A stretch of DNA of 25,598 bases from positions 1 through 25,598 of the IMG/VR virus record IMGVR_UViG_3300025647_004352; one strand, 5' to 3'. The DNA comes from a virus. The position numbers and the translations under genes were made by a program. The notes beneath the pieces are model-generated. The model made no database searches. It worked only from the letters and a program-made list of their open reading frames with translations, and was not told the DNA's origin. Of this stretch, positions 1-24,113 are shown piece by piece (within the stretch, counting starts at the first letter, position 1; each line of letters starts with the position of its first letter).

Positions 1-647
1 CATCCTACTTCGGTGAAGGAGGATGGTGTGACTCTTGGTATACGTCAATTCATCCTGAAAAAGGACAATATAACTTTAATGATATTAAAGAGGCTTATAT
101 TAAAAACCCTCATATCAAAGAAATGATGCTGACAGGAGGATCACCCACAATGCACCCAGCCTTAGTAAACGAATTGACACACTTTGCACATGAAAAAGGT
201 ATATTTATTACTATTGAAACTGAAGGCTCGCATTTCCTTGCAACTGATTATCCTATTAACTTGCTCTCGATTTCCCCTAAGTTCTCAAATTCAGTTCCTG
301 TTGTTGGAGTGGAAACACCTCAAGGGGGGATCACGGACGAAAGAATGGTAAAACAACATAATAAGCTTAGACTTAACTATGAAGCAATAGCTAACTCAAT
401 TGCTTATCATTCTGATTATCACCTGAAGCCAGTACTTGATAAAGATCTGTCGATACTAGAGGAACTAGAAGGATTTGTAAAAATGTTAGATATACCAAAT
501 GAAAAAATCTGGTGCATGCCCGCAGGAGATGATATCCCTGCACTACTAGAAAGCTACGGTCCAGTAATGGATTTTGTAAGAGATAGAGGATGGAGATTTA
601 CAGGTCGTCCACATATAATAGGATTTGGTACAAAGAGAGAAGTTTGA
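1..647 (+). CDS. queE: 7-carboxy-7-deazaguanine synthase QueE (5' end cut off)
   Basis: The reading frame is open from the first bases of the window, so the start lies upstream and this is a partial gene. QueE is a radical SAM enzyme that converts 6-carboxytetrahydropterin (from FolE and QueD) to 7-carboxy-7-deazaguanine, the precursor of preQ0. Visible QueE features are WCDSWYTS near the cut end (probably the last Cys of the cluster motif), MLTGGSPTMHP (SAM-binding GGE-like motif with Ser for Glu), IETEGS, the SPK motif in LLSISPKFSN, and a C-terminal WRFTGRPHIIGFG segment matching the family's W-F-T-R-H-G-G ending. The first two cluster cysteines cannot be checked. folE, a dpdA-like gene and queF lie within 8 kb, which supports a 7-deazaguanine role. 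Function is quite sure; cellular or phage DNA use is inference. Confidence 0.88.
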   Translation, partial: SYFGEGGWCDSWYTSIHPEKGQYNFNDIKEAYIKNPHIKEMMLTGGSPTMHPALVNELTHFAHEKGIFITIETEGSHFLATDYPINLLSISPKFSNSVPVVGVETPQGGITDERMVKQHNKLRLNYEAIANSIAYHSDYHLKPVLDKDLSILEELEGFVKMLDIPNEKIWCMPAGDDIPALLESYGPVMDFVRDRGWRFTGRPHIIGFGTKREV

Positions 648-657
648 TTCCCAAAAC

Positions 658-684
658 GACTCCTATTTATATTAAATGGGAGTC
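658..684 (+). promoter_or_regulatory. Hairpin enclosing a promoter-like element and a ribosome binding site
   Basis: GACTCC (658-663) is perfectly complementary to GGAGTC (679-684). The loop contains TATTTATATTAAAT (664-677), one of the promoter-like elements of this window. The 3' arm holds GGGAG, a rare Shine-Dalgarno-like sequence placed just ahead of the ATG at 688. A read-through transcript would hide the ribosome site in the stem. A transcript started from the element inside would lack the 5' arm and leave it free. This matches the known T4 I-TevI arrangement; the regulation here is inferred. Confidence 0.55.
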
Positions 685-687
685 AAT

Positions 688-1242
688 ATGAGAAAAGCAA
701 GTAATAGAAAAGAAATTATACCAGGAACAGTATTTGGAGAATGGACTGTATTAGAGCAATTTACAGGTAGAGATAGTAAGGAAAGACATATATCAATGCT
801 AAAAGTTAAATGTAGTTGCGGTACTGAAAAAATAATTAGAAAGAGCGGAGTAGTAGAAGGGAGGTCAAAAGCCTGTAAACCATGCTCTTCAAGAATCAAA
901 GCAACTAATCCAGGGTATGAAGAATTAGGAGGAGGTCAGATATGGTTTATTAAACATGGAGCAAAGAAAAGAAACTTAGATTATTCAATTACGGGAGAAT
1001 ACATGTGGAATCTTTTAAAAACTCAAGAGTTTAAATGCGCATTGACAGGAATTCCTCTTATAATAGAGAAAGTAAGATCTCCAAAAGTAACAGCATCCCT
1101 TGATAGAATTGATAGTAAAAAAGGGTATATTGAAGGAAATGTAAGATGGGTTCATAAAAGAGTCAATATTATGAGAATGAATATGTCTGATGAAGAATTA
1201 TTAGAATGGTGTAGATTAATAATAGGATATAATAAAAAATAA
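688..1242 (+). CDS. HNH homing-type endonuclease with N-terminal zinc-binding region
   Basis: The 184-residue protein has four cysteines in pairs (C42/C44, C63/C66) that look like a structural zinc site. They are followed by a C-terminal HNH-type nuclease core: CALTGIPL (117-124), SLDRID (137-142), GYIEGNVRWVHKRVN (146-160) and a final helix ending LLEWC. This order is typical of free-standing phage homing endonucleases, which cut allelic sites lacking the gene and spread by repair. I chose ATG 688 over the in-frame ATG 676. The latter lies inside the promoter-like element and hairpin loop, while 688 follows a GGGAG ribosome site. It sits between queE and a run of tiny genes, with no visible intron boundaries, so it is probably free-standing. 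Confidence 0.78.
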   Translation: MRKASNRKEIIPGTVFGEWTVLEQFTGRDSKERHISMLKVKCSCGTEKIIRKSGVVEGRSKACKPCSSRIKATNPGYEELGGGQIWFIKHGAKKRNLDYSITGEYMWNLLKTQEFKCALTGIPLIIEKVRSPKVTASLDRIDSKKGYIEGNVRWVHKRVNIMRMNMSDEELLEWCRLIIGYNKK

Positions 1243-1246
1243 AAAT

Positions 1247-1327
1247 ATGGAAAATCAAATTACAAAAGCTGAAGAGTACATGCCAGAAGCTTTTAGAGCA
1301 TGTATGTTAATGTTCGCAGCAAAATAA
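1247..1327 (+). CDS. Very small hypothetical protein (26 aa)
   Basis: ATG 1247 lies 4 bases after the HNH stop and reads MENQITKAEEYMPEAFRACM and six more residues to TAA at 1325. It has phage-like composition and fills an otherwise empty gap in a tightly packed region, but it is short and I recognise no family. It could equally be non-coding spacer. Confidence 0.35.
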   Translation: MENQITKAEEYMPEAFRACMLMFAAK

Positions 1328-1334
1328 AAGTATA

Positions 1335-1469
1335 GTGGATAAGCAAGAAGCCCTTTGTATATTAAGGGAAATAGAAGAGAATATCAATGTCTGTTGTGCC
1401 ATAACAATGGAACCGGATGAAGTACTAACCCTATGTGATAAATTAAAAAAGTATATAGAGAATGATTAA
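1335..1469 (+). CDS. Small hypothetical protein with GTG start (44 aa)
   Basis: A GTG-started frame reads VDKQEALCILREIEENINVC and on to IEND, ending 8 bases inside the next gene. The predicted protein is helical and acidic with amphipathic spacing (ILREIEENI, LCDKLKKYI). The start is 7 bases downstream of the previous small frame, and the short overlap with the gene at 1462 is the usual spacing here. No family is recognised. The non-ATG start makes it easy to overlook, and it lowers certainty. Confidence 0.5.
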   Translation: MDKQEALCILREIEENINVCCAITMEPDEVLTLCDKLKKYIEND

Positions 1470-1758
1470 TTTTAAAGAAATCTTAGAACACCTACCAAAG
1501 GACGAACACAGTAAGATAGTTACTGTAAACGGACATCCTGTATGGGATTATAAATCTGCTGGATTTGTAGTATACCTAATAGCAGAAGATCCCTGGCAAG
1601 GAGTCGAAGAGGAATATGTTACTGTAGAGGAACTAAAAAACTACTTAGTAGAAATAGGGATACCTTTCGAAAGTGCAGACTTTGCAACAGAAGCAGATAA
1701 AGAAAAACTAACAGTAGTTAGTTACGAAAATAATACAGTAACCTTTAATCATTTCTAA
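1462..1758 (+). CDS. Hypothetical protein (98 aa)
   Basis: A small acidic soluble protein with alternating strand and helix character, beginning MINFKEILEHLPKDEHSKIV. It has no signal peptide, membrane segment or cysteine motif, and I do not recognise its family. Its start overlaps the end of the preceding 44-aa frame by 8 bases and its stop is 4 bases before the next ATG. It is therefore probably co-transcribed with the small genes around it and the phosphoribosyltransferase at 1940. Coding is likely from length and codon use. Confidence 0.75.
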   Translation: MINFKEILEHLPKDEHSKIVTVNGHPVWDYKSAGFVVYLIAEDPWQGVEEEYVTVEELKNYLVEIGIPFESADFATEADKEKLTVVSYENNTVTFNHF

Positions 1759-1762
1759 TAAT

Positions 1763-1936
1763 ATGAACGAAAGAGAATTTGTAGAATGGTTTCGAGGATT
1801 TACTGAGGGAGTACACCATTACGGTATTAGTCCAAAGCAGTGGGATTACTTAAAGGAAAAGTTAAAAACAGTTACTAACACGAACAGTTCACATTCCTAC
1901 AATTTTACGGAGGACTGGGTAACAAATATAGCATAA
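1763..1936 (+). CDS. Small conserved phage-type protein (57 aa)
   Basis: The frame reads MNEREFVEWFRGFTEGVHHY, then GISPKQWDYLKEKLKTV, and stops at TAA 1934. The pattern of an acidic start, F-x-x-W-F-x-G-F and then S-x-x-Q-W-x-x-L-x-x-K-L resembles small uncharacterised proteins common in large tailed phages. The likeness is from memory, and no biochemical role can be given. It lies 4 bases after the previous stop and 3 bases before the phosphoribosyltransferase start, so it fits the operon exactly. Confidence 0.68.
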   Translation: MNEREFVEWFRGFTEGVHHYGISPKQWDYLKEKLKTVTNTNSSHSYNFTEDWVTNIA

Positions 1937-1939
1937 GTT

Positions 1940-2356
1940 ATGGCAGAAAAAATTAGATATAGTTGGCAGTGGGTAGATCAACAACTCAACACCATAGGAG
2001 ATAAATTGGAAGCAATCCAAAAACCTAAATTTGTTACAGGAGTTCCTAGAGGTGGACTTATCCCCGCTGTACTCCTCTCTCATAAATTCAATATACCTTA
2101 TATAGGACTTGAAGCAGCTAAGACACTTCCAGGAGAACTAAAAAAAAAGATACTCGTACTAGATGACATTTCAGACTCAGGGAATACTTTAAAGCAGATT
2201 GAACGGCATAGTTTTATAACTGCAACCCTAGCAATGAGAAGATCTACCACATACGTACCAGAATACGTAGGAGAGATGATATTAGATGATCGGTGGCTAG
2301 TGTTTCCTTGGGAAGATATTAGCTCAAAATCAATACAAGACTATCTTGTAAAGTAG
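1940..2356 (+). CDS. Phosphoribosyltransferase (PRTase type I fold)
   Basis: The 138-aa protein carries the PRPP-binding signature ILVLDDISDSGNT (71-83) and the upstream GVPRGGLIPA loop (34-43) typical of purine and xanthine-guanine phosphoribosyltransferases. It ends in DRWLVFPWED, a pattern seen in Gpt-like short PRTases. Such enzymes join a purine base to PRPP to form the nucleotide. In this setting it could salvage guanine or hypoxanthine, or even activate a 7-deazapurine base, but the base specificity cannot be read. The start codon is directly preceded by AAGTT, the window's typical start context. It is followed by a promoter-like element and folE. Confidence 0.85.
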   Translation: MAEKIRYSWQWVDQQLNTIGDKLEAIQKPKFVTGVPRGGLIPAVLLSHKFNIPYIGLEAAKTLPGELKKKILVLDDISDSGNTLKQIERHSFITATLAMRRSTTYVPEYVGEMILDDRWLVFPWEDISSKSIQDYLVK

Positions 2357-2368
2357 AACTATTTTTCA

Positions 2369-2393
2369 TATATTAAAGTATAAAAGCAGTTAT
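2369..2393 (+). promoter_or_regulatory. Promoter-like element before folE
   Basis: TATATT (2369-2374), AAAG, then TATAAAAG and AGTTAT lie in the 41-base gap before folE. The arrangement matches other gap elements in this window (at 3789, 4640, 8941). It is a motif by similarity only; no transcription start is known. Confidence 0.5.
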
Positions 2394-2397
2394 TCAA

Positions 2398-3105
2398 ATG
2401 GCAAAAAAATTTATAGAAGGAACCGAATTGGTTCAAGCAGGGTTCGCAAACGGGATCTCAACGCAATTAGCAGCAGCACAGAGCTCTTTAGGAGTTGCAG
2501 CAACACTGACCGAAAAAGATAAAGAGAAAATCGTAGATGAAGCAGCAACCCACTTTGGAAGATTTCTAACAGCACTAGGATGTGATTGGGAAAATGATCC
2601 AAACTCCAACAACACCCCTATGAGAGTAGCAAAATCGTATATGGAAAAATGGCAGGGCAGGTACGAACCATTACCTCCTATGACCGGGTTTCCTTCAGAT
2701 GGATACGATGGCCTTGTTGTAGAATCTAATATTCCACTTACTTCAATGTGTTCGCATCATCATGAAACAATTCAAGGATTCGTTACTATTGCATATGTGC
2801 CTACTCTTGAGGGAAAGGTAATAGGACTGAGTAAGTTGAATAGAATAGTGGAACACTTCGGAAGAAGAGGACAAATTCAAGAGCAATTAACTGTAGCAAT
2901 TCATAACGCAGTGGATAAGGTCTGTGAAAAAAATCAAGGTATAGCAGTTTCTATAGACGCAACACACAGCTGTGTAAGTTGTAGAGGAGTTAAACATTCC
3001 GGAGCATCTATGCAAACAACAAAACTCTCAGGATGTTTTATGAAAGAGGACTCTGCTAGATCGGAGTTTATGATGCATGTTAGTGATGCTGTGAAAAAAA
3101 GATAG
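2398..3105 (+). CDS. folE: GTP cyclohydrolase I (type IA)
   Basis: FolE converts GTP to 7,8-dihydroneopterin triphosphate, the first step of both folate and 7-deazaguanine synthesis. The 235-aa protein has the full C-terminal catalytic domain. C118-x2-H121 in TSMCSHHHE and C192 in ATHSCVSCRGV match the zinc ligands C110, H113 and C181 of the E. coli enzyme. VIGLSKLNRIVEHFGRRGQIQ (about 141-161) is the family core. Residues 1-40 form an Ala/Gln-rich N-terminal extension without clear homology. Together with queE, the dpdA-like gene and queF in the same window, it most likely feeds preQ0/preQ1 production and not folate. A promoter-like element precedes it. Confidence 0.95.
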   Translation: MAKKFIEGTELVQAGFANGISTQLAAAQSSLGVAATLTEKDKEKIVDEAATHFGRFLTALGCDWENDPNSNNTPMRVAKSYMEKWQGRYEPLPPMTGFPSDGYDGLVVESNIPLTSMCSHHHETIQGFVTIAYVPTLEGKVIGLSKLNRIVEHFGRRGQIQEQLTVAIHNAVDKVCEKNQGIAVSIDATHSCVSCRGVKHSGASMQTTKLSGCFMKEDSARSEFMMHVSDAVKKR

Positions 3106-3118
3106 AATTAGCAAGCAT

Positions 3119-3550
3119 ATGCCGTCATTAGAATATAGACCCTGGGGTTCATACGAAGTATTACACGATACTTCAGAAGCTAAAATTAAGATTATAGAAG
3201 TTGATCCTAGAAATAGACTATCATACCAGTACCACACAAAACGTCAAGAACAGTGGACTGTTATATACGGTGAACTAACTATTATTCTTGATGATGAGAA
3301 AGTATTTAGAAAGGCAGGAGAATCTATTAAAATACCATTAGGAGCTAAACATAGAGCTTGGAATGAAACAGATAAACCAGTTAGGTTTATAGAAGTACAG
3401 ACTGGAACCTATTTTGGTGAAGACGATATTGTACGGTTAGAAGATGATTATAATAGAGCAGACGAAAATCCATTTTTTCATTTAGAAGATGGTAATTACA
3501 TAGGAGGTTTAACAATGCCTAAAGAGAATACTAATAAACTAAACAAATAA
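3119..3550 (+). CDS. Mannose-6-phosphate isomerase type II-like cupin
   Basis: A single cupin domain of 143 aa resembles the C-terminal domain of bifunctional mannose-1-phosphate guanylyltransferase/mannose-6-phosphate isomerases. It opens with RPWGSYEVL, has RLSYQYHTKRQEQWTV for the first metal-binding stretch, IPLGAKHRAWN for the last metal His, and the family's IEVQTGTYFGEDDIVRLEDD segment. The expected Glu/His pair around Q-E-Q-W is partly replaced by Gln, so catalytic competence is not assured. A role in nucleotide-sugar supply fits the three glycosyltransferases and the sugar dehydratase further on. It may instead act as a small sugar-binding or epimerising cupin. It lies 13 bases after folE. 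Confidence 0.85.
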   Translation: MPSLEYRPWGSYEVLHDTSEAKIKIIEVDPRNRLSYQYHTKRQEQWTVIYGELTIILDDEKVFRKAGESIKIPLGAKHRAWNETDKPVRFIEVQTGTYFGEDDIVRLEDDYNRADENPFFHLEDGNYIGGLTMPKENTNKLNK

Positions 3551-3554
3551 AGAT

Positions 3555-3758
3555 ATGACAAACTATTGGCAAGTAACTGCCCAATTCGAAAGAGAAAACG
3601 ATAGAGGAAGGGTACAGAAAGTAAAAGAAATATATCTAGTAGATGCAATGACAGGCACAGAAGCAGAAGCTAAGACATATAAAATGTTAGAACAGTTGAG
3701 TGAAACCAACTTTAAAATTGTAAGTCTTGCAGAATCAAGAATTATAAAAGTAATTTAA
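3555..3758 (+). CDS. DUF4494-like small protein
   Basis: The 67-residue protein reads W-x-V-T-A-x-F near the start, then KVKEIYLVDAMTGTEAEAKT, and ends in a short basic beta stretch. The order Trp start, K-V-x-E-x-Y-L-V-D-A, T-E-A-E-A is the signature I associate with DUF4494, a family of Bacteroidota and their phages. No activity is known. It is the last gene before a clear terminator, so it closes the block that starts with the promoter-like element before folE. The family likeness is one of the better host clues in the window. Confidence 0.8.
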   Translation: MTNYWQVTAQFERENDRGRVQKVKEIYLVDAMTGTEAEAKTYKMLEQLSETNFKIVSLAESRIIKVI

Positions 3759-3767
3759 GAACTACTT

Positions 3768-3786
3768 GGACCTACGGGTCCTTTTT
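3768..3786 (+). terminator. Rho-independent terminator
   Basis: GGACC (3768-3772), TACG tetraloop and GGTCC (3777-3781) form a perfect 5-bp stem followed directly by TTTTT. It ends the folE-cupin-DUF4494 block and is followed within 3 bases by the next promoter-like element. Confidence 0.85.
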
Positions 3787-3788
3787 CG

Positions 3789-3808
3789 TATATTATTATA
3801 AAATAAAA
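3789..3808 (+). promoter_or_regulatory. Promoter-like element before the MazG-like gene
   Basis: TATATT, ATTA, TAAAATAAAA lies between the terminator at 3768 and the ATG at 3812. The position right after a terminator is the best argument that this recurrent motif starts transcription. Confidence 0.6.
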
Positions 3809-3811
3809 TAC

Positions 3812-4456
3812 ATGGCAACAAAAAGTATGAGAGGGGAATCTCTCGAAAGAAAAATAGGAGGGCTAGTAGGTAGAGTAAAACAGAATATGAGCTTTATCAC
3901 TCCTGAAGATATCAAGATCTTAGAATACTTAGCTACTAAGGGAGATTATCCTGAATATGAAATTAAAGTAGTGAAGAAAGGGTACGTACCTTTTGTAGAT
4001 GAAGTAGAAACGTTTAATACAACATTTGGAAAACCAAACAACTATGAACCTATCATTCCTGAAGAAAAAGAATGGAAATTTGTGTATGACTTTATCCTCG
4101 AAGAATTGGAAGAATATAAACAAGCTTGCGAACGAGGAGACATCGTGGAAGTTTTGGACGCTCTTTGCGATATTACTTATGTTTCCCTTGGGAACGGTGC
4201 TATGTTACATGGCCTTAAGGATAAGATATGGCCGGCCTATCAAGAAGTACAAGCAAGCAATATGTCGAAAGCTTGTAAAACTGAGGAAGAAGCCGTACTT
4301 ACCGTCAGCAAGAGAAGTGAGGAACAAGGTGAAGCCTGTCATTATGAGAAACTTGAGAATAGACTCTATATTGTCTACCGATCGAGAGATAAAAAAGTAA
4401 TGAAATCAATAAATTACTTTAGACCTAATTTAAAACAGTTTTTCAATGCCAATTAA
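3812..4456 (+). CDS. MazG/HisE-like nucleotide pyrophosphohydrolase
   Basis: The protein (214 aa) contains an all-alpha NTP pyrophosphohydrolase core. FILEELEEY (about 94-102) supplies the E-x2-E metal motif and EVLDALCDITYVSLG (113-127) the paired E-x2-D helix. The downstream AYQEVQASNMSKACKTEEEA resembles HisE/MazG-like proteins of Bacteroidota. Family members cleave NTPs to NMP and PPi, so phage copies may tune nucleotide pools or ppGpp. Substrate is unknown, but a role in sanitising or preparing purine nucleotides is plausible next to the 7-deazaguanine genes. The C-terminal half, with an RSRDKKVMKSINYFRPNLKQ stretch, seems characteristic of this longer subfamily. A +3 shadow frame at 4026-4400 is not a gene. 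Confidence 0.82.
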   Translation: MATKSMRGESLERKIGGLVGRVKQNMSFITPEDIKILEYLATKGDYPEYEIKVVKKGYVPFVDEVETFNTTFGKPNNYEPIIPEEKEWKFVYDFILEELEEYKQACERGDIVEVLDALCDITYVSLGNGAMLHGLKDKIWPAYQEVQASNMSKACKTEEEAVLTVSKRSEEQGEACHYEKLENRLYIVYRSRDKKVMKSINYFRPNLKQFFNAN

Positions 4457-4634
4457 CATAGAAGCTCACAAAGTATATGTAGACTCCCTAAAGATGGAGA
4501 TGGTTCCTTATTCAATAGTACTCCAAGCCTTAAATGAAGTAAACGATATAGATACAGAAAAATATACTAAAGAATTAGATAGTGCTTTAGCGGAATTTCA
4601 TAAAGCATTAAAGAGTATCAAAGTAGATAATTGA
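4446..4634 (+). CDS. Small hypothetical protein (62 aa)
   Basis: The frame overlaps the 3' end of the MazG-like gene by 11 bases and encodes an acidic helical peptide (MPINIEAHKVYVDSLKMEMV, then a long helix ending KALKSIKVDN). There is no membrane segment or known motif. The overlap suggests translational coupling with the MazG-like protein. Coding is plausible from composition, and function is unknown. Confidence 0.65.
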   Translation: MPINIEAHKVYVDSLKMEMVPYSIVLQALNEVNDIDTEKYTKELDSALAEFHKALKSIKVDN

Positions 4635-4639
4635 AATAG

Positions 4640-4665
4640 TATATTAGAATATAAATTAAAATAGT
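4640..4665 (+). promoter_or_regulatory. Promoter-like element before the dpdA-like gene
   Basis: TATATT, AGAA, TATAAATTAAAA, then TAGTT immediately before the ATG at 4667. It is a full match to the shared gap motif plus the AGTTATG start context. Confidence 0.55.
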
Positions 4666-4666
4666 T

Positions 4667-5464
4667 ATGGCAATACGCATAGCCCATGAGGCACCAAAAA
4701 GCATTTTCCAAGAAGTAAATGAACTTACCTCGTACAGTTACGCTCTCGTACATTTATTTGAAGAAGATAAAGAATACCTTAGTCAATTTAAAGAAGTAAT
4801 AAGAAAAGGGAGAGAGGTTATTTTAGATAATTCAATTTTTGAATTAGAAGAAGCTTTTGATGCAGATAGATTTGTCTACTGGGTTAAAGAAATAAGACCT
4901 ACTTGGTATATAGTACCTGATGCTTTAGAAGATGCAGAAAAAACTATGTTTCAAATGGGAGAATGGAATGCTAATTATACTAATATCCCCGGTAAAAAGA
5001 TAGGAGTAGTTCAAGGTAAAACTTACCAGGAGATAAAGAAATGTTATGAGTTTATGGATAAACATTCAGGAGCTGATATGATTGCTATTTCTTTTGATTA
5101 TTCGTATTATACTAAATCAGTCCCCCACCCTAACAAATACGTTAGTTGGTGCCTTGGACGTGTTAAGCTACTGGGAGACTTAATGAGAGACGGTATTATC
5201 AATAAAGATAAGCCTCATCACTTATTAGGAAGTTCACTATACTGGGAAGGTCAGTTTTATAAGCATTCTAATTATAGCTGGATATATTCGATGGATACTT
5301 CAAATCCTGTAGTATTTGGAATTAAAGATAGAGAGTACGGAGGATTAACATGGGATAAACCAAGAGAAAAAGTATTTACATTAATTAATCAGGAACTAAC
5401 TGATAGCCAACTACAAAAGGTTATTAGTAATATAAAGCAATTTAAAAAAGCCTGGAATGGCTAG
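4667..5464 (+). CDS. dpdA: DpdA/TGT-like 7-deazaguanine transglycosylase
   Basis: The 265-aa protein looks like the phage branch of the tRNA-guanine transglycosylase superfamily, which exchanges guanine in DNA for a 7-deazaguanine base. Landmarks in TGT order are ILDNSIFE (52-59, with D54), YIVPDALED (81-89), IGVVQGKTYQE (112-122), MIAISFDYS (138-146) and SMDTSNPVVFG (208-218). D210 is placed like the nucleophilic Asp of TGT. It is shorter than bacterial Tgt (about 375 aa) and lacks that family's Cys-rich zinc site, as expected for phage DpdA-type proteins. folE, queE and queF nearby support a DNA or tRNA 7-deazaguanine role. Assignment is by motif memory, without a search. Confidence 0.75.
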   Translation: MAIRIAHEAPKSIFQEVNELTSYSYALVHLFEEDKEYLSQFKEVIRKGREVILDNSIFELEEAFDADRFVYWVKEIRPTWYIVPDALEDAEKTMFQMGEWNANYTNIPGKKIGVVQGKTYQEIKKCYEFMDKHSGADMIAISFDYSYYTKSVPHPNKYVSWCLGRVKLLGDLMRDGIINKDKPHHLLGSSLYWEGQFYKHSNYSWIYSMDTSNPVVFGIKDREYGGLTWDKPREKVFTLINQELTDSQLQKVISNIKQFKKAWNG

Positions 5465-5505
5465 TTTAGAATAGATAATTAGAGTAATTTAAGAAAAGAC
5501 AATAA

Positions 5506-5676
5506 ATGGTAAAGAGTAAAAAATATAAAGCAGGTCAAATTCTAGAATTTAACTTTGCTGGATCAGTACACCAAGGAGAAGTCACATCAGTCGATAGTGA
5601 TGGAAAAGTTAAGTTATTTGATGGAAAATACAAATATGTAGTACAATCTGAAAAAATAATAAAAGTTATAAAATAA
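5506..5676 (+). CDS. Small beta-rich hypothetical protein (56 aa)
   Basis: The frame reads MVKSKKYKAGQILEFNFAGS, then VHQGEVTSVDSDGKVKLFDG, and ends YVVQSEKIIKVIK. The alternation of short strands with Gly/Asp turns suggests an SH3-like or KOW-like barrel, a pattern seen in small uncharacterised phage proteins. It lies 41 bases after the dpdA-like gene. The segment directly downstream (5681-5756) can fold strongly. No function can be given. Confidence 0.68.
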   Translation: MVKSKKYKAGQILEFNFAGSVHQGEVTSVDSDGKVKLFDGKYKYVVQSEKIIKVIK

Positions 5677-5680
5677 AAAA

Positions 5681-5756
5681 GGTATACTTAACTGTATCTC
5701 ATAAGTAAGCATAGTAGTAGCTTAATACAGAGCGGTAGAGGTCCGTATATACTACC
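5681..5756 (+). ncRNA. Candidate structured RNA element between two genes
   Basis: The 108-base gap before the formyltransferase gene can fold into several nested stems. CTGTAT (5692-5697) pairs with ATACAG (5725-5730). Directly inside, TAAGC (5706-5710) pairs with GCTTA (5720-5724). GGTAG (5734-5738) pairs with CTACC (5752-5756). Alternatively GGTATA (5681-5686) can close the whole with TATACT (5748-5753). It has some tRNA-like words but no proper T arm. A leader structure controlling the formyltransferase gene, or a small RNA, is possible. The fold is by eye only. Confidence 0.35.
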
Positions 5757-5784
5757 AGAGATAATTTAAATAAAAAAAATAAAA

Positions 5785-6330
5785 ATGAGTAAAAATCCAA
5801 GATGTTGGATAGTTTTTTTTTCACAAACTGGAAGTGAAATAGTAGACTTAGCTAAAGAATTAGGAAAATGGCCAGATATTATAATTACTAATAAAAGGCC
5901 GGATAATTTAAGAAAAATTCATCCCGAATTAGAAAACAAAGTAACTTTTGTTGAAAATAAACCTTCCCAAGAAGAACTAACAGCAATACTATCTCAGTAT
6001 AATAATCCATTAATTACCTTACACGGGTGGTTAAGAGTTATACCTCCAGCAATATGTGAGAAATACAGAATATATAATGGACACCCGGGATTAATTACAG
6101 AATACGACCACTTAAAAGGAAAAGATCCCCAAATAAGAGCTTTTAGAGAAAAATTACCGATTATGGGATGTGTTATACATAGAGTAGTAGCAGGAGTTGA
6201 TCAAGGAGAAGTAATAGCACAAGAAAGGTTCAATGCTTTTAATATTACAGAAGAAGAAATGTGGGAGGCAACCAGAGACAGGTCTCTATACCTATGGACT
6301 CAGTTTTTTATAAAAACAATTGGATATTAG
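5785..6330 (+). CDS. PurN-like formyltransferase
   Basis: The 181-aa protein is a single formyltransferase domain of the PurN/Fmt fold, which moves a formyl group from 10-formyl-tetrahydrofolate to an amine. The catalytic triad of PurN (Asn, His, Asp) is present: NGHPG (98-102, N98 and H100) and D139 in VIHRVVAGVDQGEVIAQERF (130-149). LHGWLRVIPP (79-88) is the family strand before the active site. The N-terminal nucleotide-like loop is short and the C-terminal Fmt domain is absent. Substrate is unknown. Glycinamide ribonucleotide (purine synthesis) is the textbook one. Next to dpdA- and queF-like genes, the aminomethyl group of preQ1 or its DNA nucleoside is an attractive alternative. Confidence 0.85.
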   Translation: MSKNPRCWIVFFSQTGSEIVDLAKELGKWPDIIITNKRPDNLRKIHPELENKVTFVENKPSQEELTAILSQYNNPLITLHGWLRVIPPAICEKYRIYNGHPGLITEYDHLKGKDPQIRAFREKLPIMGCVIHRVVAGVDQGEVIAQERFNAFNITEEEMWEATRDRSLYLWTQFFIKTIGY

Positions 6331-6342
6331 AAGAAATCTTCG

Positions 6343-6370
6343 TATCTTAATAGAAATAAAAAAAAGAAGT
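6343..6370 (+). promoter_or_regulatory. Promoter-like element before the P-loop gene
   Basis: TATCTT, AATA, GAAATAAAAA, then AGAAGTT immediately before the ATG at 6372. It is one mismatch from the other gap elements. A small GAAG/CTTC inverted repeat (6330-6341) lies just upstream. Confidence 0.45.
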
Positions 6371-6371
6371 T

Positions 6372-6890
6372 ATGAATAGGAGAATAGCTCTTGTAGGAGC
6401 ATCATCAGTAGGAAAGACCACGGTATACGAACTCTTAAGAAATAAACTAACAGAATGGACTTTTATAAATGAATCTACTAGAACTGTAGCTGGGTATGGA
6501 TTTCCTATTAACGAAAAAGGAACTTCTAAAACTCAACTTGCCATAAGTAGCTTCCACTTAGAGGCTCTACTACGTCCCGGTAACTTACTATTAGATAGAT
6601 GTTATATGGACCTCATGGTATATTCTAATTTTATGCCAGGAATAGACGCACCTACTCATGCCTATATAGAAGATACTTGGGGTAGAGTTAAAAACGAATA
6701 TACACATTATGTTTACTTTCCTATTGAATTTAAATCAGTAGATGATGGAGTTCGAAGTGTAAACGAAGACTGGAGAGAGAAAATAGATAAAGAATTTCAA
6801 CTTCTTCTAGAAGGAGTTAGAAAACCCTTCCTAACTGTAACCGGATCACCCTTACAGAGAGTTGAACAAATTTTAAACTTTATACAGTAA
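6372..6890 (+). CDS. P-loop nucleotide kinase-like protein (AAA_28/NadR-type)
   Basis: The protein (172 aa) starts with a Walker A motif, GASSVGKTT (9-17), on the first strand. LLLDRCYMDLMVYSNF supplies a DR-type second catalytic stretch as in nucleoside and NMP kinases, and VNEDWREKIDKEF is a lid-like basic segment. The fold resembles AAA_28/NadR-type kinases that phosphorylate nucleosides or NMPs. In T4-like phages, analogous genes make special dNTPs, so a role with modified deoxynucleotides is possible. The substrate cannot be deduced. The start carries the AGTTATG context. The stop overlaps the next ATG by one base (TAATG). Confidence 0.75.
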   Translation: MNRRIALVGASSVGKTTVYELLRNKLTEWTFINESTRTVAGYGFPINEKGTSKTQLAISSFHLEALLRPGNLLLDRCYMDLMVYSNFMPGIDAPTHAYIEDTWGRVKNEYTHYVYFPIEFKSVDDGVRSVNEDWREKIDKEFQLLLEGVRKPFLTVTGSPLQRVEQILNFIQ

Positions 6891-7336
6891 TGGCAGATAT
6901 CTTAGATAAAATGTTATTAGAGAAAAGAAATACTAACACAGAACTTTGGCAAAAAGTTCCTACCTGGGCTAGGAAAATATACGTATTCCAATTTAAGAAA
7001 GGGGTACACACCTTTTTAAAGGTCGGAGTAACTGATTATATGGAAGCCTATGATAGAATAATTGCTAACCATGCTATATTCAAGCAGGGTAAAGAAGAAG
7101 CCTGGGTAAAAACAACGATGTTCGAATACTTCGATGAAATCAAGATTATGACTAGTGCAATGTTACCACAAGAGAAAGCAAATAAACTAGAGGAAATTAT
7201 ACTCCTAGCATGGGGAGTTCAAGATTTAAACTTACCTAAAATGAACGGAATGTCAGAAATACGTCAATATACCTTGCCAAGACTTAAACAAGCAAGAGCT
7301 ATCATAGAAGAAAGTAGATATAAAAAACTAAACTAA
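6890..7336 (+). CDS. Hypothetical protein, possibly GIY-YIG-like (T5orf172 type)
   Basis: The 148-aa soluble protein has RKIYVFQFKKGVHTFLKVGV (residues about 28-47) followed by EAYDRI. This resembles the Tyr-strand-K-V-G-x-T-x-R region of T5orf172/GIY-YIG-type nucleases. A later EKANKLEEIILLAWGVQD helix sits where those proteins have their catalytic Glu. The similarity is weak and catalytic residues are not securely placed, so a non-enzymatic hypothetical protein is equally possible. It is translationally coupled to the kinase-like gene by a one-base overlap. Confidence 0.65.
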   Translation: MADILDKMLLEKRNTNTELWQKVPTWARKIYVFQFKKGVHTFLKVGVTDYMEAYDRIIANHAIFKQGKEEAWVKTTMFEYFDEIKIMTSAMLPQEKANKLEEIILLAWGVQDLNLPKMNGMSEIRQYTLPRLKQARAIIEESRYKKLN

Positions 7337-7358
7337 GGTAACATATAAAACAGTAATA

Positions 7359-7724
7359 ATGTACAAATACGGAGCAAAGTTAATAAGAGTGGTAGATGGG
7401 GATACAGCAGAATGTATGATCGACCTAGGGTTTAACACCTGGATAAAAGCAACCTTGAGATTTATGGGAGTTGATACCTGGGAAAGTAGAACAACAAACT
7501 TAGAAGAAAAAGCTAAAGGGAAGTTAGCGTCTACCTACACAAAAGAAATGTTAGAAAAAAACGATGGTAAATTTACTCTTCAATCTTACGGAAAAGGTAA
7601 GTTTGGCAGGGTACTTGCTGAAATATTTATACAAGGAGAAGAAACCTCTTTAAATAAACTACTAATCGAAAACGGCCACGCGTATGCATACGAAGGCGGT
7701 AAAAAACAACTATTTAAAGGATAA
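7359..7724 (+). CDS. Staphylococcal-nuclease-like (thermonuclease) protein
   Basis: The 121-aa protein is a short SNase/OB-fold nuclease. LIRVVDGDTAECMIDLG (8-24) is the classic opening with D13. TLRFMGVDTWES (32-43) carries the equivalents of catalytic R35 and E43 (here R34 and E42) and calcium-site D39-T40. GKFGRVLAEI (80-89) carries R84 for R87. All catalytic positions of the family are therefore present. It lacks a signal peptide, so it probably acts on nucleic acid inside the infected cell, perhaps for host DNA breakdown or nucleotide recycling. It is 4 bases upstream of queF. Confidence 0.85.
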   Translation: MYKYGAKLIRVVDGDTAECMIDLGFNTWIKATLRFMGVDTWESRTTNLEEKAKGKLASTYTKEMLEKNDGKFTLQSYGKGKFGRVLAEIFIQGEETSLNKLLIENGHAYAYEGGKKQLFKG

Positions 7725-7728
7725 AAAA

Positions 7729-8640
7729 ATGGAAAAAGTAAAAGACAATCAAGCAGCATTATTTGCTGTAGCCAGCAAGCATTTAGGAAAAACAGGAGGA
7801 GAAGGATACTCAGACCAGTATAATGCAGAGCTATTAGTAAAGATACCTCGTTACCTAAATAGAGAAGGCTACGGATTAACATCAGACTCCTTTATAGGAG
7901 TGGATACCTGGAATGCATACGAAATCTCAGCTATTACAACTAAAGGACAGCCAGTAGCAGGAATGCTTAAGATAGTATGTCCTGCCGACTCAGCCCATCA
8001 CGTAGAATCTAAGTCAATTAAACTATACTTAAATTCTTTTAATATGACTCGCATCGGGGATACAGCAGTAGAATGCATAGCAGGAATAGAAGCAAGAGTT
8101 AAAAGAGACTTAGATGAGTTACTCGAAACAACAAATACAGTAACCTTTTACACCTCCAACGACGATGGAATTACACTATCTTTTGAAGGGTATAGCGATG
8201 TTGCTGATTTAGCTAATTTAGATGAAATTGACTTTACAGCATTCCAATCAGATGCCTCTCAACTAGAAGTAGTAGAATCAAATGAATCAGCACAACTTAA
8301 ATTATCATCTAATCTACTCAGATCTAACTGCAGAGTTACAAATCAACCAGATTGGGGGGATGTTTATATTAAAATAAAAGGAAAGAAGCTTCCAACACCG
8401 GCTTCAATTGCAAAGTATATTGTATCCCACAGAACTGTATCACACTTTCATGAGGAGGTAGTAGAGATGATGTTTAAACATTTAAGCGATGCTTTTGAAC
8501 CGGAAGAATTGATGGTATGTGCATTGTATACTAGAAGAGGAGGATTAGATATTAATCCAATTAGAGCTACCCACCCTCACTTAATTCCAGACTTTTTTAC
8601 TAACCCAGCTTATAGAATAACTAAAACACTTAGACAGTAA
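7729..8640 (+). CDS. queF: NADPH-dependent 7-cyano-7-deazaguanine reductase (QueF)
   Basis: QueF reduces the nitrile of preQ0 to the aminomethyl of preQ1. The protein (303 aa from ATG 7729) is of the long, two-module proteobacterial type. The N-terminal part has GVDTWNAYEISAI and the NADPH motif ESKSIKLYLNSFN (93-105). The C-terminal part has LLRSNCRVTNQPDWG (196-210) with catalytic C201 and D208, SHFHEE with H241 and E242, and YTRRGGLDINPIR. All key residues are intact, so it is likely a true reductase and not an amidating QueF-like variant, though those are hard to separate by eye. ATG 7729 (after an A-rich run, 4 bases past the SNase stop) is preferred over in-frame ATG 7684 inside the SNase gene. 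Confidence 0.92.
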   Translation: MEKVKDNQAALFAVASKHLGKTGGEGYSDQYNAELLVKIPRYLNREGYGLTSDSFIGVDTWNAYEISAITTKGQPVAGMLKIVCPADSAHHVESKSIKLYLNSFNMTRIGDTAVECIAGIEARVKRDLDELLETTNTVTFYTSNDDGITLSFEGYSDVADLANLDEIDFTAFQSDASQLEVVESNESAQLKLSSNLLRSNCRVTNQPDWGDVYIKIKGKKLPTPASIAKYIVSHRTVSHFHEEVVEMMFKHLSDAFEPEELMVCALYTRRGGLDINPIRATHPHLIPDFFTNPAYRITKTLRQ

Positions 8641-12361: not shown

Positions 12362-12843
12362 AACCGAGAGCTGCGGCCTCACAAAAACTAAATGATATGA
12401 GTACATTACAATTACAGAAATGGCACCTAAGTCCTTTCGACATTCTTTTCAAAAATCACTTTAATGTTGGAGATCAATTCGCACCAGCATTAGATTCAAA
12501 ACAACCACATCCACTAAATATCTTCTATAATGATATAGGGCTTTATTTTGAAGTTGCCTGTACGGGACTAACTAAAAAAGACGTCATTATTGATATCGAA
12601 GGAGATATTCTAAAAATCACCTACAAAAAACCGCATGATGAAGCATTCCAAGAAGGTATGATTTATAATGGACTATCTAAAAAATCATTTGATTTAAGGT
12701 ATAAGATTGCACCTAAATTTGATTTATTACAAACAGATGCATCCTTAATAGATGGATTATTAGAGATTTTTATTCCACTAGCTGAAGAAGCTAAACCAAA
12801 ATCAATTAAAATTAAATAAACTTTTCTACTCTAGGGTTTGATC
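12331..12843 (+). repeat. Inverted repeat flanking the hsp20 gene
   Basis: GATCGACCCTAGAG (12331-12344) upstream and CTCTAGGGTTTGATC (12829-12843) downstream are complementary over CCCTAGAG/CTCTAGGG and GATC/GATC, with GA facing TTT between. The left arm starts right after the promoter-like element, so both arms would lie in the hsp20 mRNA. The span is given from arm to arm. Confidence 0.5.
12397..12819 (+). CDS. Small heat shock protein (Hsp20/alpha-crystallin)
   Basis: The protein has 140 aa with an alpha-crystallin domain. IGLYFEVACTGLTKKDVIID (about 47-66), EGDILKITYKK, GLSKKSFDLRYKI and DGLLEIFIPL make up the sandwich strands. A C-terminal K-P-K-S-I-K-I-K tail carries the I-x-I motif used for oligomer contacts. 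Hsp20 proteins hold unfolding proteins for refolding by other chaperones, and T4-like cyanophages also carry one. Its position directly before groES and groEL suggests one proteostasis module for capsid or tail folding. Its mRNA ends can pair with each other (see the repeat at 12331 and 12829). Confidence 0.88.
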   Translation: MSTLQLQKWHLSPFDILFKNHFNVGDQFAPALDSKQPHPLNIFYNDIGLYFEVACTGLTKKDVIIDIEGDILKITYKKPHDEAFQEGMIYNGLSKKSFDLRYKIAPKFDLLQTDASLIDGLLEIFIPLAEEAKPKSIKIK

Positions 12844-12858
12844 TTTAATAAAAAGATC
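12840..12858 (+). promoter_or_regulatory. Perfect hairpin/operator-like repeat before groES
   Basis: GATCTTT (12840-12846) and AAAGATC (12852-12858) are perfect complements around AATAA. There is no T-tract, so it is not an ordinary terminator. It lies directly upstream of the promoter-like element at 12860 and shares its GATC with the hsp20-flanking repeat, giving two alternative pairings. It may be an operator or an RNA switch. Confidence 0.5.
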
Positions 12859-12859
12859 A

Positions 12860-12888
12860 TATATTAATTAAACAAATAAAAAAGTTAT
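12860..12888 (+). promoter_or_regulatory. Promoter-like element before groES
   Basis: TATATT, AATT, AAACAAATAAAAAA, then AGTTAT three bases before the ATG at 12891. It matches the shared gap motif apart from a C in the A-rich part. Confidence 0.5.
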
Positions 12889-12890
12889 AA

Positions 12891-13202
12891 ATGAGTAAAA
12901 CACTTATTCCACAAAATGACCGTATCCTTATTAAACCTATCGACGAGGGTGAACAGATGTACGGGAACATTGTTATCCCCGATATGGGAAAAGAAAAACC
13001 AGAAATGGGCAAGGTCGTAGCAATTGGACCTGGTAGAAAATCAGAATTTGGACACTATATTGCAGTAAACTCCAAAGTAGGAGATACCGTACTAGTTCCT
13101 AAAATCGGTACTTTACGTATTGATTTTGAAGGAGATGAATATTTTATAGTTCAAGACAGGGAAGTATTAGCAACAATTCAAGAAACACAAGACAATGAAT
13201 AA
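12891..13202 (+). CDS. groES: GroES co-chaperonin
   Basis: The 103-aa protein has the GroES beta-barrel landmarks PQNDRILIKPID (start strand), GKVVAIGPGRK, VGDTVLVPKIGTLRIDFEGD and the ending YFIVQDREVLATI. The mobile loop (GEQMYGNIVIPD, about 21-32) ends in a hydrophobic I-V-I-P, as needed for docking onto GroEL. GroES caps the GroEL ring during folding. It overlaps groEL by 8 bases, as in a coupled operon. Phages often carry only one partner (T4 gp31 is a GroES analogue, some jumbo phages carry GroEL), so the complete pair is notable. Confidence 0.93.
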   Translation: MSKTLIPQNDRILIKPIDEGEQMYGNIVIPDMGKEKPEMGKVVAIGPGRKSEFGHYIAVNSKVGDTVLVPKIGTLRIDFEGDEYFIVQDREVLATIQETQDNE

Positions 13203-14826
13203 AAAAATAGTTTTTTCAAAAGAAGCTAGAAATCAACTGCTAGAAGGAGTAGATCAACTAGCAGATGCAGTAGTAGCTACATTAGGTCCATCAGGACGAA
13301 ATGTAATCATCGAACAGGATATGGGGAGTCCAATATCAACCAAAGATGGAGTTACAGTAGCTAAATCAATAGATTTAGAAGATAGGGTACAGAATATTGG
13401 AGCACAGTTAGTTAAACAGGCTTCAATCAGAACTGGAGAACAAGCCGGTGACGGCACAACAACCTCTACACTACTTGCTAGAGAGATATACAAACAAGGA
13501 CTCCAGTTTATGAAAAAAGGAGCTAATGCAGTAGATATTAAAAGAGGAATTGATCAGGCAGTAAAAGAAGTAGTAGAGTATTTAGAAAACTATTCAAAAG
13601 ATATAACGGACGAAGAACAACTTAAACAAGTCGCTACTATTTCAGCCAACAACGATACAGAAGTTGGTAAGTTAATTTCCACAGCCATGGATAAAGTAGG
13701 TAGAGATGGAGTTATTACAATCGAAGAGTCACGTACAGGAGAAACATACCTTGAAACAGTAGAGGGTATGCAATTCAATCGCGGTTACAAGTCTCCTTAC
13801 TTCGTAACAGATAATAACTCAATGCAAGCTGTTCTTCGTGATCCGTTAATTCTTATTACAGATAAGAGATTAAATCATGTTAAAGAACTACTTCCTATCT
13901 TAGAAGCAGTATCTCAACAGAATAAGGCACTACTTATCATCGCCGAAGATATCGACGGAGAGGCACTTTCTACCTTAGTGGTAAACAAGATGAGAGGCAT
14001 TCTTCAAGCCGTAGTAGTTAAAGCACCGGACTTTGGAGACCGTAAAAAAGCTATCCTAGAAGATATTGCTACACTTACAGGCGGAACGGTAATTTCAACT
14101 GAGAAAGGAATGAGACTAGATAAGTTTGATACTACCTGGTTAGGTAAAGCTAAAAAAGTAACAGTAGGAAAAGAAGTAACAACAATTATCGATGCACAAG
14201 GACAAGAAGAAAGTATAGAACAGCGAATAAATGAAATTAGAGCGCAAATTGATGAGAGTAACTCTCCTTATGAAATCGAGAAATTACAAGAAAGATTAGC
14301 ATCTTTCATTGGTGGAGTAGCAATCGTACATGTGGGAGGACATACAGAGGTTGAAATGAAAGAAAAGAAAGACCGTGTTGATGACGCACTACATGCAACT
14401 AAAGCTGCTCTAGAAGAAGGAATATTACCAGGAGGAGGGATAGCACTATTAAATGCATCTAAGATGTTAGCTCAAATTATAAACAAAGTAGAAGGAGATG
14501 AACAAGCAGGATACGACATTGTAGTACAGGCTACAGAAAAACCTTTCTACCAGATTTTAGAAAATGCAGGATATTCAAAGCAAGAAGCTCAAGACATAGA
14601 AGAAGAAATAATGAACGCTAAAGAAGAGTGGTACGGATATAATCCAAGAATTAAAGAATACGCACATATGCTAACCTCAGGAATTATAGATCCAACTAAA
14701 GTTACAAGGCTGGCACTAGAAAATGCTGCTTCAGTAGCAGGTACAATGTTAATAACAGAAGCAGTAATATCTAATATCAAAGAAAAAGATACTGCCAAAG
14801 AAGTTGATCCAAATATGTTTATGTAA
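13195..14826 (+). CDS. groEL: GroEL chaperonin
   Basis: A full-length chaperonin of 543 aa. ATP-binding and hydrolysis motifs are intact: [61 protein letters not shown], and the end [10 protein letters not shown]...[22 protein letters not shown]. The apical domain (about 185-370) is complete. The usual Gly-Gly-Met repeat at the C-terminus is missing; it ends DPNMFM, so the cavity floor tail differs from that of bacterial GroEL. With groES (8-base overlap) and hsp20 it forms a chaperone island that probably folds phage structural or replication proteins independently of host supply. Host origin by transfer is likely, but codon use matches the neighbours. Confidence 0.97.
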
Positions 14827-21296: not shown

Positions 21297-22745
21297 ATGA
21301 AAAATAAGTTTCGTTATTTAGAGCAAAAAGATCGGAAAAAGATTCTACTGTTATGTGATGATATTCGGATGCATTCCGGAGTAGGGAACATGGCCAAAGA
21401 GATGATAATATCAACAGCACACCACTTCAATTGGGTTAACCTAGGAGCAGCCATAAAACATCCAGAAGAAGGTAAGGTATTTGATATATCTGCGCAAGTA
21501 AATAAAGAAGCAGGGATAGAAGATTCTTTTATTAGGTTAATTCCTTGCTCAGGGTATGGAGATTCTAAGAAAATTAGAGAGATTATAAGTATTGAAAACC
21601 CTGATGCTATTTTTATTTTTACAGATCCTAGATACTGGACTTGGTTATTTGAAATAGAAAGAGAGATCAGATCTAAAATGCCAATTTTTTGGTTAAATAT
21701 TTGGGATGATTATCCAGCTCCTCTATACAATAAATCTTATTACGAATCTGTAGATGTTTTAATGGCTATCTCAAAACAAACAAAAAACATTAACGAAATC
21801 GTATTAGGAGAGAAATCTAAAGAAAAGTTAATTAAGTACGTACCTCATGGAATAAATGAGAAATCCTTCTACCCTATTAAAGCATCGCACCAAGATTATG
21901 GGAAAGTCCTAGAGTTTAAGAAAGCTATTTTAAAGAGCGAGGAAATAGAGTTTGTACTTTTTCATAACTCTAGAAACATTAGAAGAAAAAGTACAGCAGA
22001 TATTATTTTAGCATACAGGCACTTTTGTGACCTCATAGGAAAAGAGGCAGCTAAAAAATGTGCTTTCATCTTACATACAGATATACAAGACCAGCATGGA
22101 ACAGATCTCAAAGCAGTTAGAGAAGCTTTCTGTGATCCTAGTTATGTCAATGTATACTTCTCAACCGACAAAATAGAAGTAGCACAGCTAAACCTGCTCT
22201 ATAATATTGCTGATGCAACAATTATGCTCTCCTCAAACGAAGGTTGGGGATTATCATTGACCGAGTCATTAATTACCGGTACTATGGTTATTGCTAACGT
22301 AACAGGAGGTATGCAAGATCAGATGAGATTTGAAGGTCCGGACGGAGAATGGATAGATTTTACACCTGACTTTCCTTCTAACCATAGAGGGACAATTAAG
22401 CAATGTGGGGAATGGGCAGTACCGGTCTTTCCTTCTAACATTTCAGTAGCAGGCTCTATCCCAACACCTTATATTTTTGACGATAGATGCTCAGCAGAAG
22501 ATGGAGCACAGGGAATTTTAAAAGTATATAAAATGACTAAAGAGCAACGAGATGAAAATGGAATGAAAGGATATGAATGGGTAATAGGAGATGAGGCTAA
22601 TATGACAGCTCGTAAAATGGGACAAACTGCAATCGAGGTTATTGATGAAGGTTTTGACAAGTTTATTCCAAGAAAGTCTTTTGACTTTCATACAATAGAA
22701 GATAGGCCACCAAAATATATAGAGCATAAATTAACAGGGTACTAG
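21297..22745 (+). CDS. GT-B glycosyltransferase (GT4-like)
   Basis: The protein (482 aa) has two Rossmann-like halves. The first begins KILLLCDDIRMHSGVGNMAK (14-33), the usual glycine loop of GT4 enzymes. The second carries VLFHNSRNIRRKSTADIILA and the donor-site motif MLSSNEGWGLSLTESLITGT with the acidic E-x7-E equivalent (E-G-W-G-L-S-L-T-E). These retaining enzymes use NDP-sugars. The acceptor is unknown and could be a virion or tail glycan, a host surface sugar or DNA. The start is 9 bases after the RHH stop. It forms a sugar cluster with the genes at 22823 and 24572. Confidence 0.9.
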   Translation: MKNKFRYLEQKDRKKILLLCDDIRMHSGVGNMAKEMIISTAHHFNWVNLGAAIKHPEEGKVFDISAQVNKEAGIEDSFIRLIPCSGYGDSKKIREIISIENPDAIFIFTDPRYWTWLFEIEREIRSKMPIFWLNIWDDYPAPLYNKSYYESVDVLMAISKQTKNINEIVLGEKSKEKLIKYVPHGINEKSFYPIKASHQDYGKVLEFKKAILKSEEIEFVLFHNSRNIRRKSTADIILAYRHFCDLIGKEAAKKCAFILHTDIQDQHGTDLKAVREAFCDPSYVNVYFSTDKIEVAQLNLLYNIADATIMLSSNEGWGLSLTESLITGTMVIANVTGGMQDQMRFEGPDGEWIDFTPDFPSNHRGTIKQCGEWAVPVFPSNISVAGSIPTPYIFDDRCSAEDGAQGILKVYKMTKEQRDENGMKGYEWVIGDEANMTARKMGQTAIEVIDEGFDKFIPRKSFDFHTIEDRPPKYIEHKLTGY

Positions 22746-22822
22746 TATGCTGTTAATAAATAATTTCTATTGGAGTTCTGAAATTAAATCTTTAAATTAC
22801 TATAAATTAAAAAACTTACTAA

Positions 22823-24112: not shown

Positions 24113-24113
24113 A

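Follow-up and report, generated by a model that had tools for sequence, protein, structure and literature searches.

The closest described systems are those in which phages carry 7-deazaguanine derivatives in their DNA. Cui et al. reportedly detected fdPreQ1, 7-(formylamino)methyl-7-deazaguanine, in the DNA of phages and put forward DpdN as its dPreQ1 formyltransferase (NAR, 2023). That system has the same predicted product and enzyme class as the cassette described here, together with DpdA and the preQ0/QueF pathway; our likening to DpdN is by these features. The genome of Flavobacterium phage vB_FspM_immuto (MW353175-7, Immutovirus) shares with our locus the order queE-PRT-folE-mazG-dpdA-formyltransferase-kinase-queF-polA-groES-groEL and has queD and queC besides.

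The DNA analyzed here, referred to as the window, is the entire viral record IMGVR_UViG_3300025647_004352 (25,598 nt), and the cassette occupies positions 1-8640. This region encodes QueE, a phosphoribosyltransferase, FolE, MazG, a DpdA-type transglycosylase, a PurN-like formyltransferase (FT), a P-loop kinase and QueF. All of these genes had been named in an initial annotation of the 8.6 kb, and all were recognized by profile, homology or structure. An HNH endonuclease, a cupin, an SNase and one further ORF, absent from that annotation's list, also lie in the cassette. The features are as follows:

3..647, plus strand: QueE, 7-carboxy-7-deazaguanine synthase, truncated at its 5′ end by the start of the record (phrog_2076 QueE-like radical SAM, 6.5e-32)
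676-1242: HNH endonuclease
1940..2356, plus strand: phosphoribosyltransferase, xanthine-PRT-like (Pfam Pribosyltran, 1.8e-7; NCBIfam, 2.8e-12, below cut-off)
2398..3105, plus strand: FolE, GTP cyclohydrolase I (Pfam, 2e-44)
3119-3550: cupin
3812..4456, plus strand: MazG-like nucleotide pyrophosphohydrolase (PRA-PH, 2.7e-9; phrog_671, 1.5e-28)
4667..5464, plus strand: DpdA-type DNA guanine transglycosylase (homology to immuto DpdA; TGT fold in the predicted structure)
5785..6330, plus strand: PurN-like formyltransferase, candidate (d)PreQ1 formyltransferase, DpdN-like (Formyl_trans_N, 6.6e-13)
6372..6890, plus strand: P-loop kinase-like protein that constantly accompanies DpdA (AAA_28, 9.6e-15)
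6890-7336: ORF
7359..7724, plus strand: SNase-like nuclease, between kinase and QueF (Pfam SNase, 5.2e-10)
7684..8640, plus strand: QueF, preQ0 reductase yielding preQ1 (QueF_N, 3.3e-28; QueF, 4.5e-17)

The window and immuto proteins share 57-69% identity for FT, DpdA, kinase and QueF, whereas similarity at the DNA level is slight, and the HNH endonuclease, the cupin, the extra ORF and the SNase are found inside the cassette of the window but not in that of immuto. The SNase is a recurrent cassette passenger, present in 13 cassettes among the matches listed. The phosphoribosyltransferase gene is kept in most of the related IMG/VR cassettes among the matches listed. Its recurrence, with unchanged gene order, in immuto and dozens of IMG/VR contigs shows that the clustering is not accidental. 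With respect to the fdPreQ1/DpdN system, the window has QueF, a DpdA of the TGT superfamily and an FT of the PurN superfamily linked to both. Of the preQ0 genes, FolE and a truncated QueE are in the window, and QueD and QueC are in immuto. The window phage is a different species from the fdPreQ1/DpdN phages and is represented by a fragment lacking queD and queC. The cassette is probably another member of the fdPreQ1/DpdN system and not new chemistry.

Comparison with immuto QueE indicated that about 44 residues are missing from the N terminus of the QueE of the window, and with them two of the three cluster cysteines. At the other end of the cassette, the true start of QueF is likely the ATG at 7729, directly past the SNase stop codon. 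This QueF is bimodular, matches the solved QueF 3bp1 (2e-45) and conserves the active-site motifs SNC/TNQPDWG and ESKS/KLYLNS. The absence of queD and queC, already noticed in the initial annotation, holds for the full 25.6 kb, which is the complete record. Both genes are presumably encoded beyond the record ends; QueC was found in all 12 large relatives tested.

The DpdA of the window had no Pfam match, and a profile search against PDB chain sequences returned no match; its fold was visible by structure comparison only. The predicted structure has the tRNA-guanine transglycosylase fold (VIA Z 18.2), and Foldseek also matched it to the DpdA structure 7ui4. Residues D54, D85, D144 and D210 are invariant in the DpdA alignment. 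The protein is 65% identical to the immuto protein annotated as DpdA, and the next best match, 37% identical over 98% of its length, is that of Campylobacter phage CP220. We take the transglycosylase of the CP220 group to be DpdA3, and the protein of the window probably belongs to the same subfamily.

These features make it very probable that the locus is a DNA hypermodification cassette of the immuto type that yields a formylated preQ1-type base in DNA. In the proposed pathway, FolE, QueD, QueE and QueC would produce preQ0, which QueF would reduce to preQ1, a base bearing a primary amine. The TGT-fold DpdA would swap guanines in the phage DNA for the 7-deazaguanine, and the PurN-like enzyme would transfer a formyl group from 10-formyl-THF to the preQ1 amine, either while the base is free or once it is in DNA. 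The product would be 7-(formylamino)methyl-7-deazaguanine, which may shield the DNA from restriction. This pathway is the best explanation of the observed gene identities, TGT fold, catalytic residues and near-invariant linkage, from which we infer the substrate, the order of the steps, the final base and the protection. A formylated preQ1 had been put forward in the initial annotation as a new base outside the enzymes described. The mechanism is well supported by which genes are present, by their catalytic residues and by a linkage that is both tight and conserved, but the claim of novelty is, to our knowledge, wrong, given the 2023 report of fdPreQ1 and DpdN.

Calling the formyltransferase PurN-like leaves its substrate unfixed. 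FT and PurN, the GAR transformylase, have in common the Formyl_trans_N fold and the N/H/D triad, which is invariant in the FT alignment (N98/H100/D139). The enzyme could be an ordinary PurN that serves the phage as an auxiliary gene product, raising purine synthesis (GAR to FGAR) in the infected host, its deazaguanine neighbors being accidental. PurN is indeed the closest curated family (TIGR00639, 3.7e-14), the solved relatives of FT are mostly PurN, and the immuto protein is annotated as phosphoribosylglycinamide formyltransferase. However, the match to TIGR00639 reached 52.7 bits, far under the curated cut-off of 150.1. Moreover, the protein carries SQTGSE where PurN has the GSGSN phosphate loop, and, in contrast to true PurN, none of the 79 FT sequences listed has a GSxxN loop. 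Other motifs are conserved in the family: N-x-H-P-G occurs in 78 of the 79 sequences among the matches listed, and HGWLR and HPGLITEYPELKGKDPQ-type motifs are conserved in the alignment.

The location of the gene also bears on its function. Scanning of IMG/VR confirmed at least 501 FT relatives. DpdA was present at every viral FT locus among the matches listed (80/80), and the few loci without QueF among them were contigs ending nearby. The order DpdA-FT-kinase-QueF was found in 63 of the 64 listed IMG/VR cassettes with enough downstream flank, and the position of FT between DpdA and kinase-QueF is fixed across diverse phages. An FT accompanied by neither dpdA nor queF, the pattern that the initial annotation had named as speaking against its proposal, was thus unseen in viral contigs. 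The cut-off, the replaced phosphate loop and this fixed linkage led us to set aside an ordinary purine-pathway PurN as highly improbable; the comparative evidence favors action of FT on the preQ1 amine. The wider FT family is not tied to deazaguanine, since a Microcoleus MAG holds a remote relative (40%) that adjoins a DegT aminotransferase, and no DpdA is found there. With its many viral relatives, the fragment belongs to a widespread and little-known form of phage DNA disguise.

Formylation could also be an intermediate or protecting step, after which the kinase or another partner would elaborate the base beyond formyl-preQ1. P-loop kinases serve to activate bases in other phages with hypermodified DNA, and the kinase of the cassette is as tightly linked as QueF (63/64 cassettes among the matches listed). 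A search among PDB sequences gave no useful match for this kinase. Nonetheless, it is retained where FT is absent, and a relative lies directly downstream of DpdA in CP220-type Campylobacter phages, in whose genome the FT of the window had no match and which are reported to carry dADG (cited in PMC6884629). Further elaboration of the base is unlikely, and the pattern is more in keeping with a DpdA helper or a role in nucleotide supply than with tailoring of the base. A constant kinase partner of DpdA, found also in Campylobacter phages, raises a concrete question about how these transglycosylases work.

In three lineages lacking FT, the DpdA-QueF interval holds different genes that are candidates for acylating an amine, a pattern that also favors the formylation reading of FT:

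Loci L123, L122 and L188: FkbH-GNAT protein and VOC enzyme
Locus L107: kinase-GNAT fusion
Loci L103 and L109: GNAT and amidoligase-like protein

No FT was found over the full length of each of these contigs, which are fragments, in a search set that held no positive control. At locus L224, FT lies 3.7 kb away from DpdA, so absence of FT from a fragment is not proof of its loss. We tentatively suggest that the DpdA-QueF interval may be an interchangeable amine-acylation slot in which most of these phages would formylate preQ1 while sister lineages swapped FT for other acyl-transfer-type enzymes, and that the latter may carry N-acetyl, N-glyceryl-type or aminoacyl-type preQ1. The swap appears to be new, and we know of no description of any of these bases in DNA. 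If the pattern is true, the contigs listed above are predicted to bear new acylated 7-deazaguanine DNA bases, and phages would be varying what caps a single modified base, plausibly as a way past restriction or base-specific defense enzymes. In FT-positive cassettes, 58 intervening ORFs were scanned, and none of them had an acetyltransferase match. The individual gene calls differ in strength. At L103, the GNAT has weak profile matches (Pfam, 0.003; phrog_1249, 8e-4) and a low-confidence AlphaFold model (pLDDT 41), and the amidoligase-like call comes from three weak matches (0.035-0.072). The FkbH domain at L123 passed the TIGR01686 cut-off (151.2 vs 146.65 bits).

The window is the entire 25,598-base virus record and its sequence starts at position 1. 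The cassette genes named in the initial annotation were recovered, all on the + strand, and queD and queC, as it had stated, were not on this fragment. The features of the cassette are as follows:

3-647, + strand: QueE, N-terminus missing
676-1242: HNH endonuclease, endonuclease VII-like (phrog_3322, 3.6e-23)
1940-2356, + strand: phosphoribosyltransferase
2398-3105, + strand: FolE
3119-3550: cupin, mannose-6-phosphate isomerase C-terminal type
3812-4456, + strand: MazG
4667-5464, + strand: DpdA
5785-6330, + strand: PurN-like formyltransferase (Formyl_trans_N, 6.6e-13)
6372-6890, + strand: P-loop kinase
6890-7336: further ORF between the kinase and SNase
7359-7724: SNase
7684-8640, + strand: QueF, likely start 7729

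The HNH endonuclease, probably a homing endonuclease, lies within the cassette and is not found at the corresponding place in Flavobacterium phage vB_FspM_immuto (immuto). The cupin is also absent from immuto and was found again in a subset of relatives.

The formyltransferase scored 52.7 bits against the PurN model, under the cut-off of 150.1. Its catalytic N-x-H...D triad (N98, H100 and D139) is invariant in the first nine sequences, and N-x-H-P-G was found in 78 of 79 formyltransferases, the remaining one being lost at its contig end. The PurN loop GSGSN/GSGTN binds the phosphate of GAR. In an alignment with the true PurN proteins of two genomes, which score above the cut-off, the window protein has SQTGSE in place of this loop, and GSxxN was present in none of the 79. 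With the phosphate loop replaced, the sequence would fit an amine formyltransferase that has given up GAR. QueF, which would make the primary amine (preQ1), carries the motifs SNC-x-x-TNQPDWG and ESKS-KLYLNS of its solved relative 3bp1.

The gene order of immuto matches that of the window: queD, queE, phosphoribosyltransferase, folE, mazG, dpdA, formyltransferase, kinase, queF, polA, groES and groEL; queC lies further upstream, some 12 kb from queE. Identities are 57% for the formyltransferase, 65% for DpdA, 69% for the kinase and 62% for QueF. Since immuto carries queD and queC, and QueC is encoded in 12 of the 12 large relatives tested (139-191 kb), the pathway from GTP to preQ1 is probably phage-encoded, though these two genes are not on the window fragment. 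The cysteine spacing of immuto QueE (L001:8579-9352) is C-x3-C-x7-C, versus the usual C-x3-C-x2-C. Scanning IMG/VR with the formyltransferase alignment confirmed at least 501 relatives, and DpdA was present at all of the best 80 viral loci; the contrary pattern named in the initial annotation, a formyltransferase found consistently in relatives lacking dpdA and queF, was not seen among these loci. Of 79 formyltransferase-positive loci that differ in DpdA sequence, 64 extend more than 3.5 kb downstream of the formyltransferase. Both kinase and QueF are encoded at 63 of these; the remaining contig is phage-like and belongs to the bin of a Clostridiales MAG.

These motifs and the fixed linkage make it probable that the mechanism proposed in the initial annotation, in which QueF makes the amine, DpdA inserts the base in DNA and the formyltransferase formylates it, is right. 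The proposed novelty of the base does not appear to hold. Cui et al. in 2023 reportedly described four new phage 7-deazaguanines, including 2'-deoxy-7-(formylamino)methyl-7-deazaguanine (fdPreQ1), and are said to have predicted a dPreQ1 formyltransferase, DpdN, together with DpdM, DpdL and the subfamilies DpdA3 and DpdA4. The immuto record, too, is already annotated with QueD, QueE, FolE, QueF and DpdA. The supposed new base is therefore a rediscovery, and the window is a further member of a known phage 7-deazaguanine system. Protection of phage DNA from restriction by 7-deazaguanines is established (PMC6884629).

The window DpdA had no Pfam match and no sequence match in PDB. Its predicted structure (AlphaFold2, ten aligned relatives, pLDDT 87) gave tRNA-guanine transglycosylases and the DpdA crystal structure 7ui4 as top Foldseek matches, and aligned to archaeosine TGT with Z 18.2 and rmsd 3.0 over 234 residues (VIA-align). 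D54, D85, D144 and D210 are invariant across relatives. After immuto, the closest phage group is that of the Campylobacter CP220-type phages (37%), whose DpdA we take to be of the DpdA3 subfamily.

The P-loop kinase (window 6372-6890) equals QueF in constancy. Because it is kept where the formyltransferase is absent, and a relative directly adjoins DpdA in CP220-type phages, for which the base is reported as dADG (as cited in PMC6884629), a helper of DpdA or a role in nucleotide supply is more likely than a tailoring enzyme. The pairing of kinase and DpdA extends to phage CP220 (L186:8995-10355), which also has an HD plus P-loop protein (gp055) on the opposite flank of DpdA.

The interval between DpdA and QueF possibly holds a nuclease slot: SNase occupies it in 13 cassettes and a DNA/RNA non-specific endonuclease in 8, and no cassette has both. 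The endonuclease of one relative (L118:8522-9136) starts with a signal-peptide-like stretch, which the window SNase lacks.

Three lineages have DpdA, kinase and QueF without the formyltransferase. The first (L123/L122/L188; L123:6918-8812) encodes an FkbH-domain protein (TIGR01686, 151.2 bits, above cut-off) with an extra C-terminal GNAT domain (2.8e-11), followed by a methylmalonyl-CoA-epimerase-like VOC protein and the kinase, with QueF in L123. L123 and L188 were counted as one lineage because they are close relatives (flanks 92-97%) with a diverged DpdA region (80%). In the second (L107:6123-7079), the kinase carries a GNAT-like domain (0.0023) as a C-terminal fusion. The third (L103/L109; L103:10444-12447) has a weakly matched amidoligase-like protein between DpdA and the kinase and a GNAT-like protein (0.003; phrog acetyltransferase 8e-4) between the kinase and QueF. 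The formyltransferase was not found elsewhere on these contigs, which are fragments; in another locus, L224, it lies further downstream. As a control, ORFs between DpdA and QueF, other than formyltransferase, MazG and kinase, were taken from 68 formyltransferase-positive cassettes with both genes. Excluding close copies, 58 were scanned; no acetyltransferase appeared among the 25 listed of 29 families matched at E <=0.1, and the clear families were for the most part SNase and endonucleases of the non-specific or homing type. Candidate acyl-transfer-type genes occur in 3/3 lineages versus 0/68 cassettes (Fisher p = 1.7e-5, indicative only, the cassettes being related and the former inspected unblinded). 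In the DpdA tree, the loci without formyltransferase stand at separate positions among the positive ones, some rows so labelled being contigs that end early. It is possible that the preQ1 amine is a common substrate whose acyl cap is swapped between lineages, an aspect worth following; the occurrence of such alternative genes in this interval appears to be a new finding.

A formyltransferase 40% identical to that of the window, in a Microcoleus MAG (L083:6752-10537), adjoins a phosphoribosyltransferase, a DegT aminotransferase, a thymidylate-kinase-like protein and a radical SAM protein; the 20 kb of its sequence covered revealed no DpdA. Elsewhere in the window, 12397-14826 encodes an Hsp20-like protein and, after it, GroES and GroEL, and 21297-25501, near the record end, encodes two group-1 glycosyltransferases, the first 74% identical to immuto at the DNA level, and a polysaccharide-biosynthesis epimerase/dehydratase.
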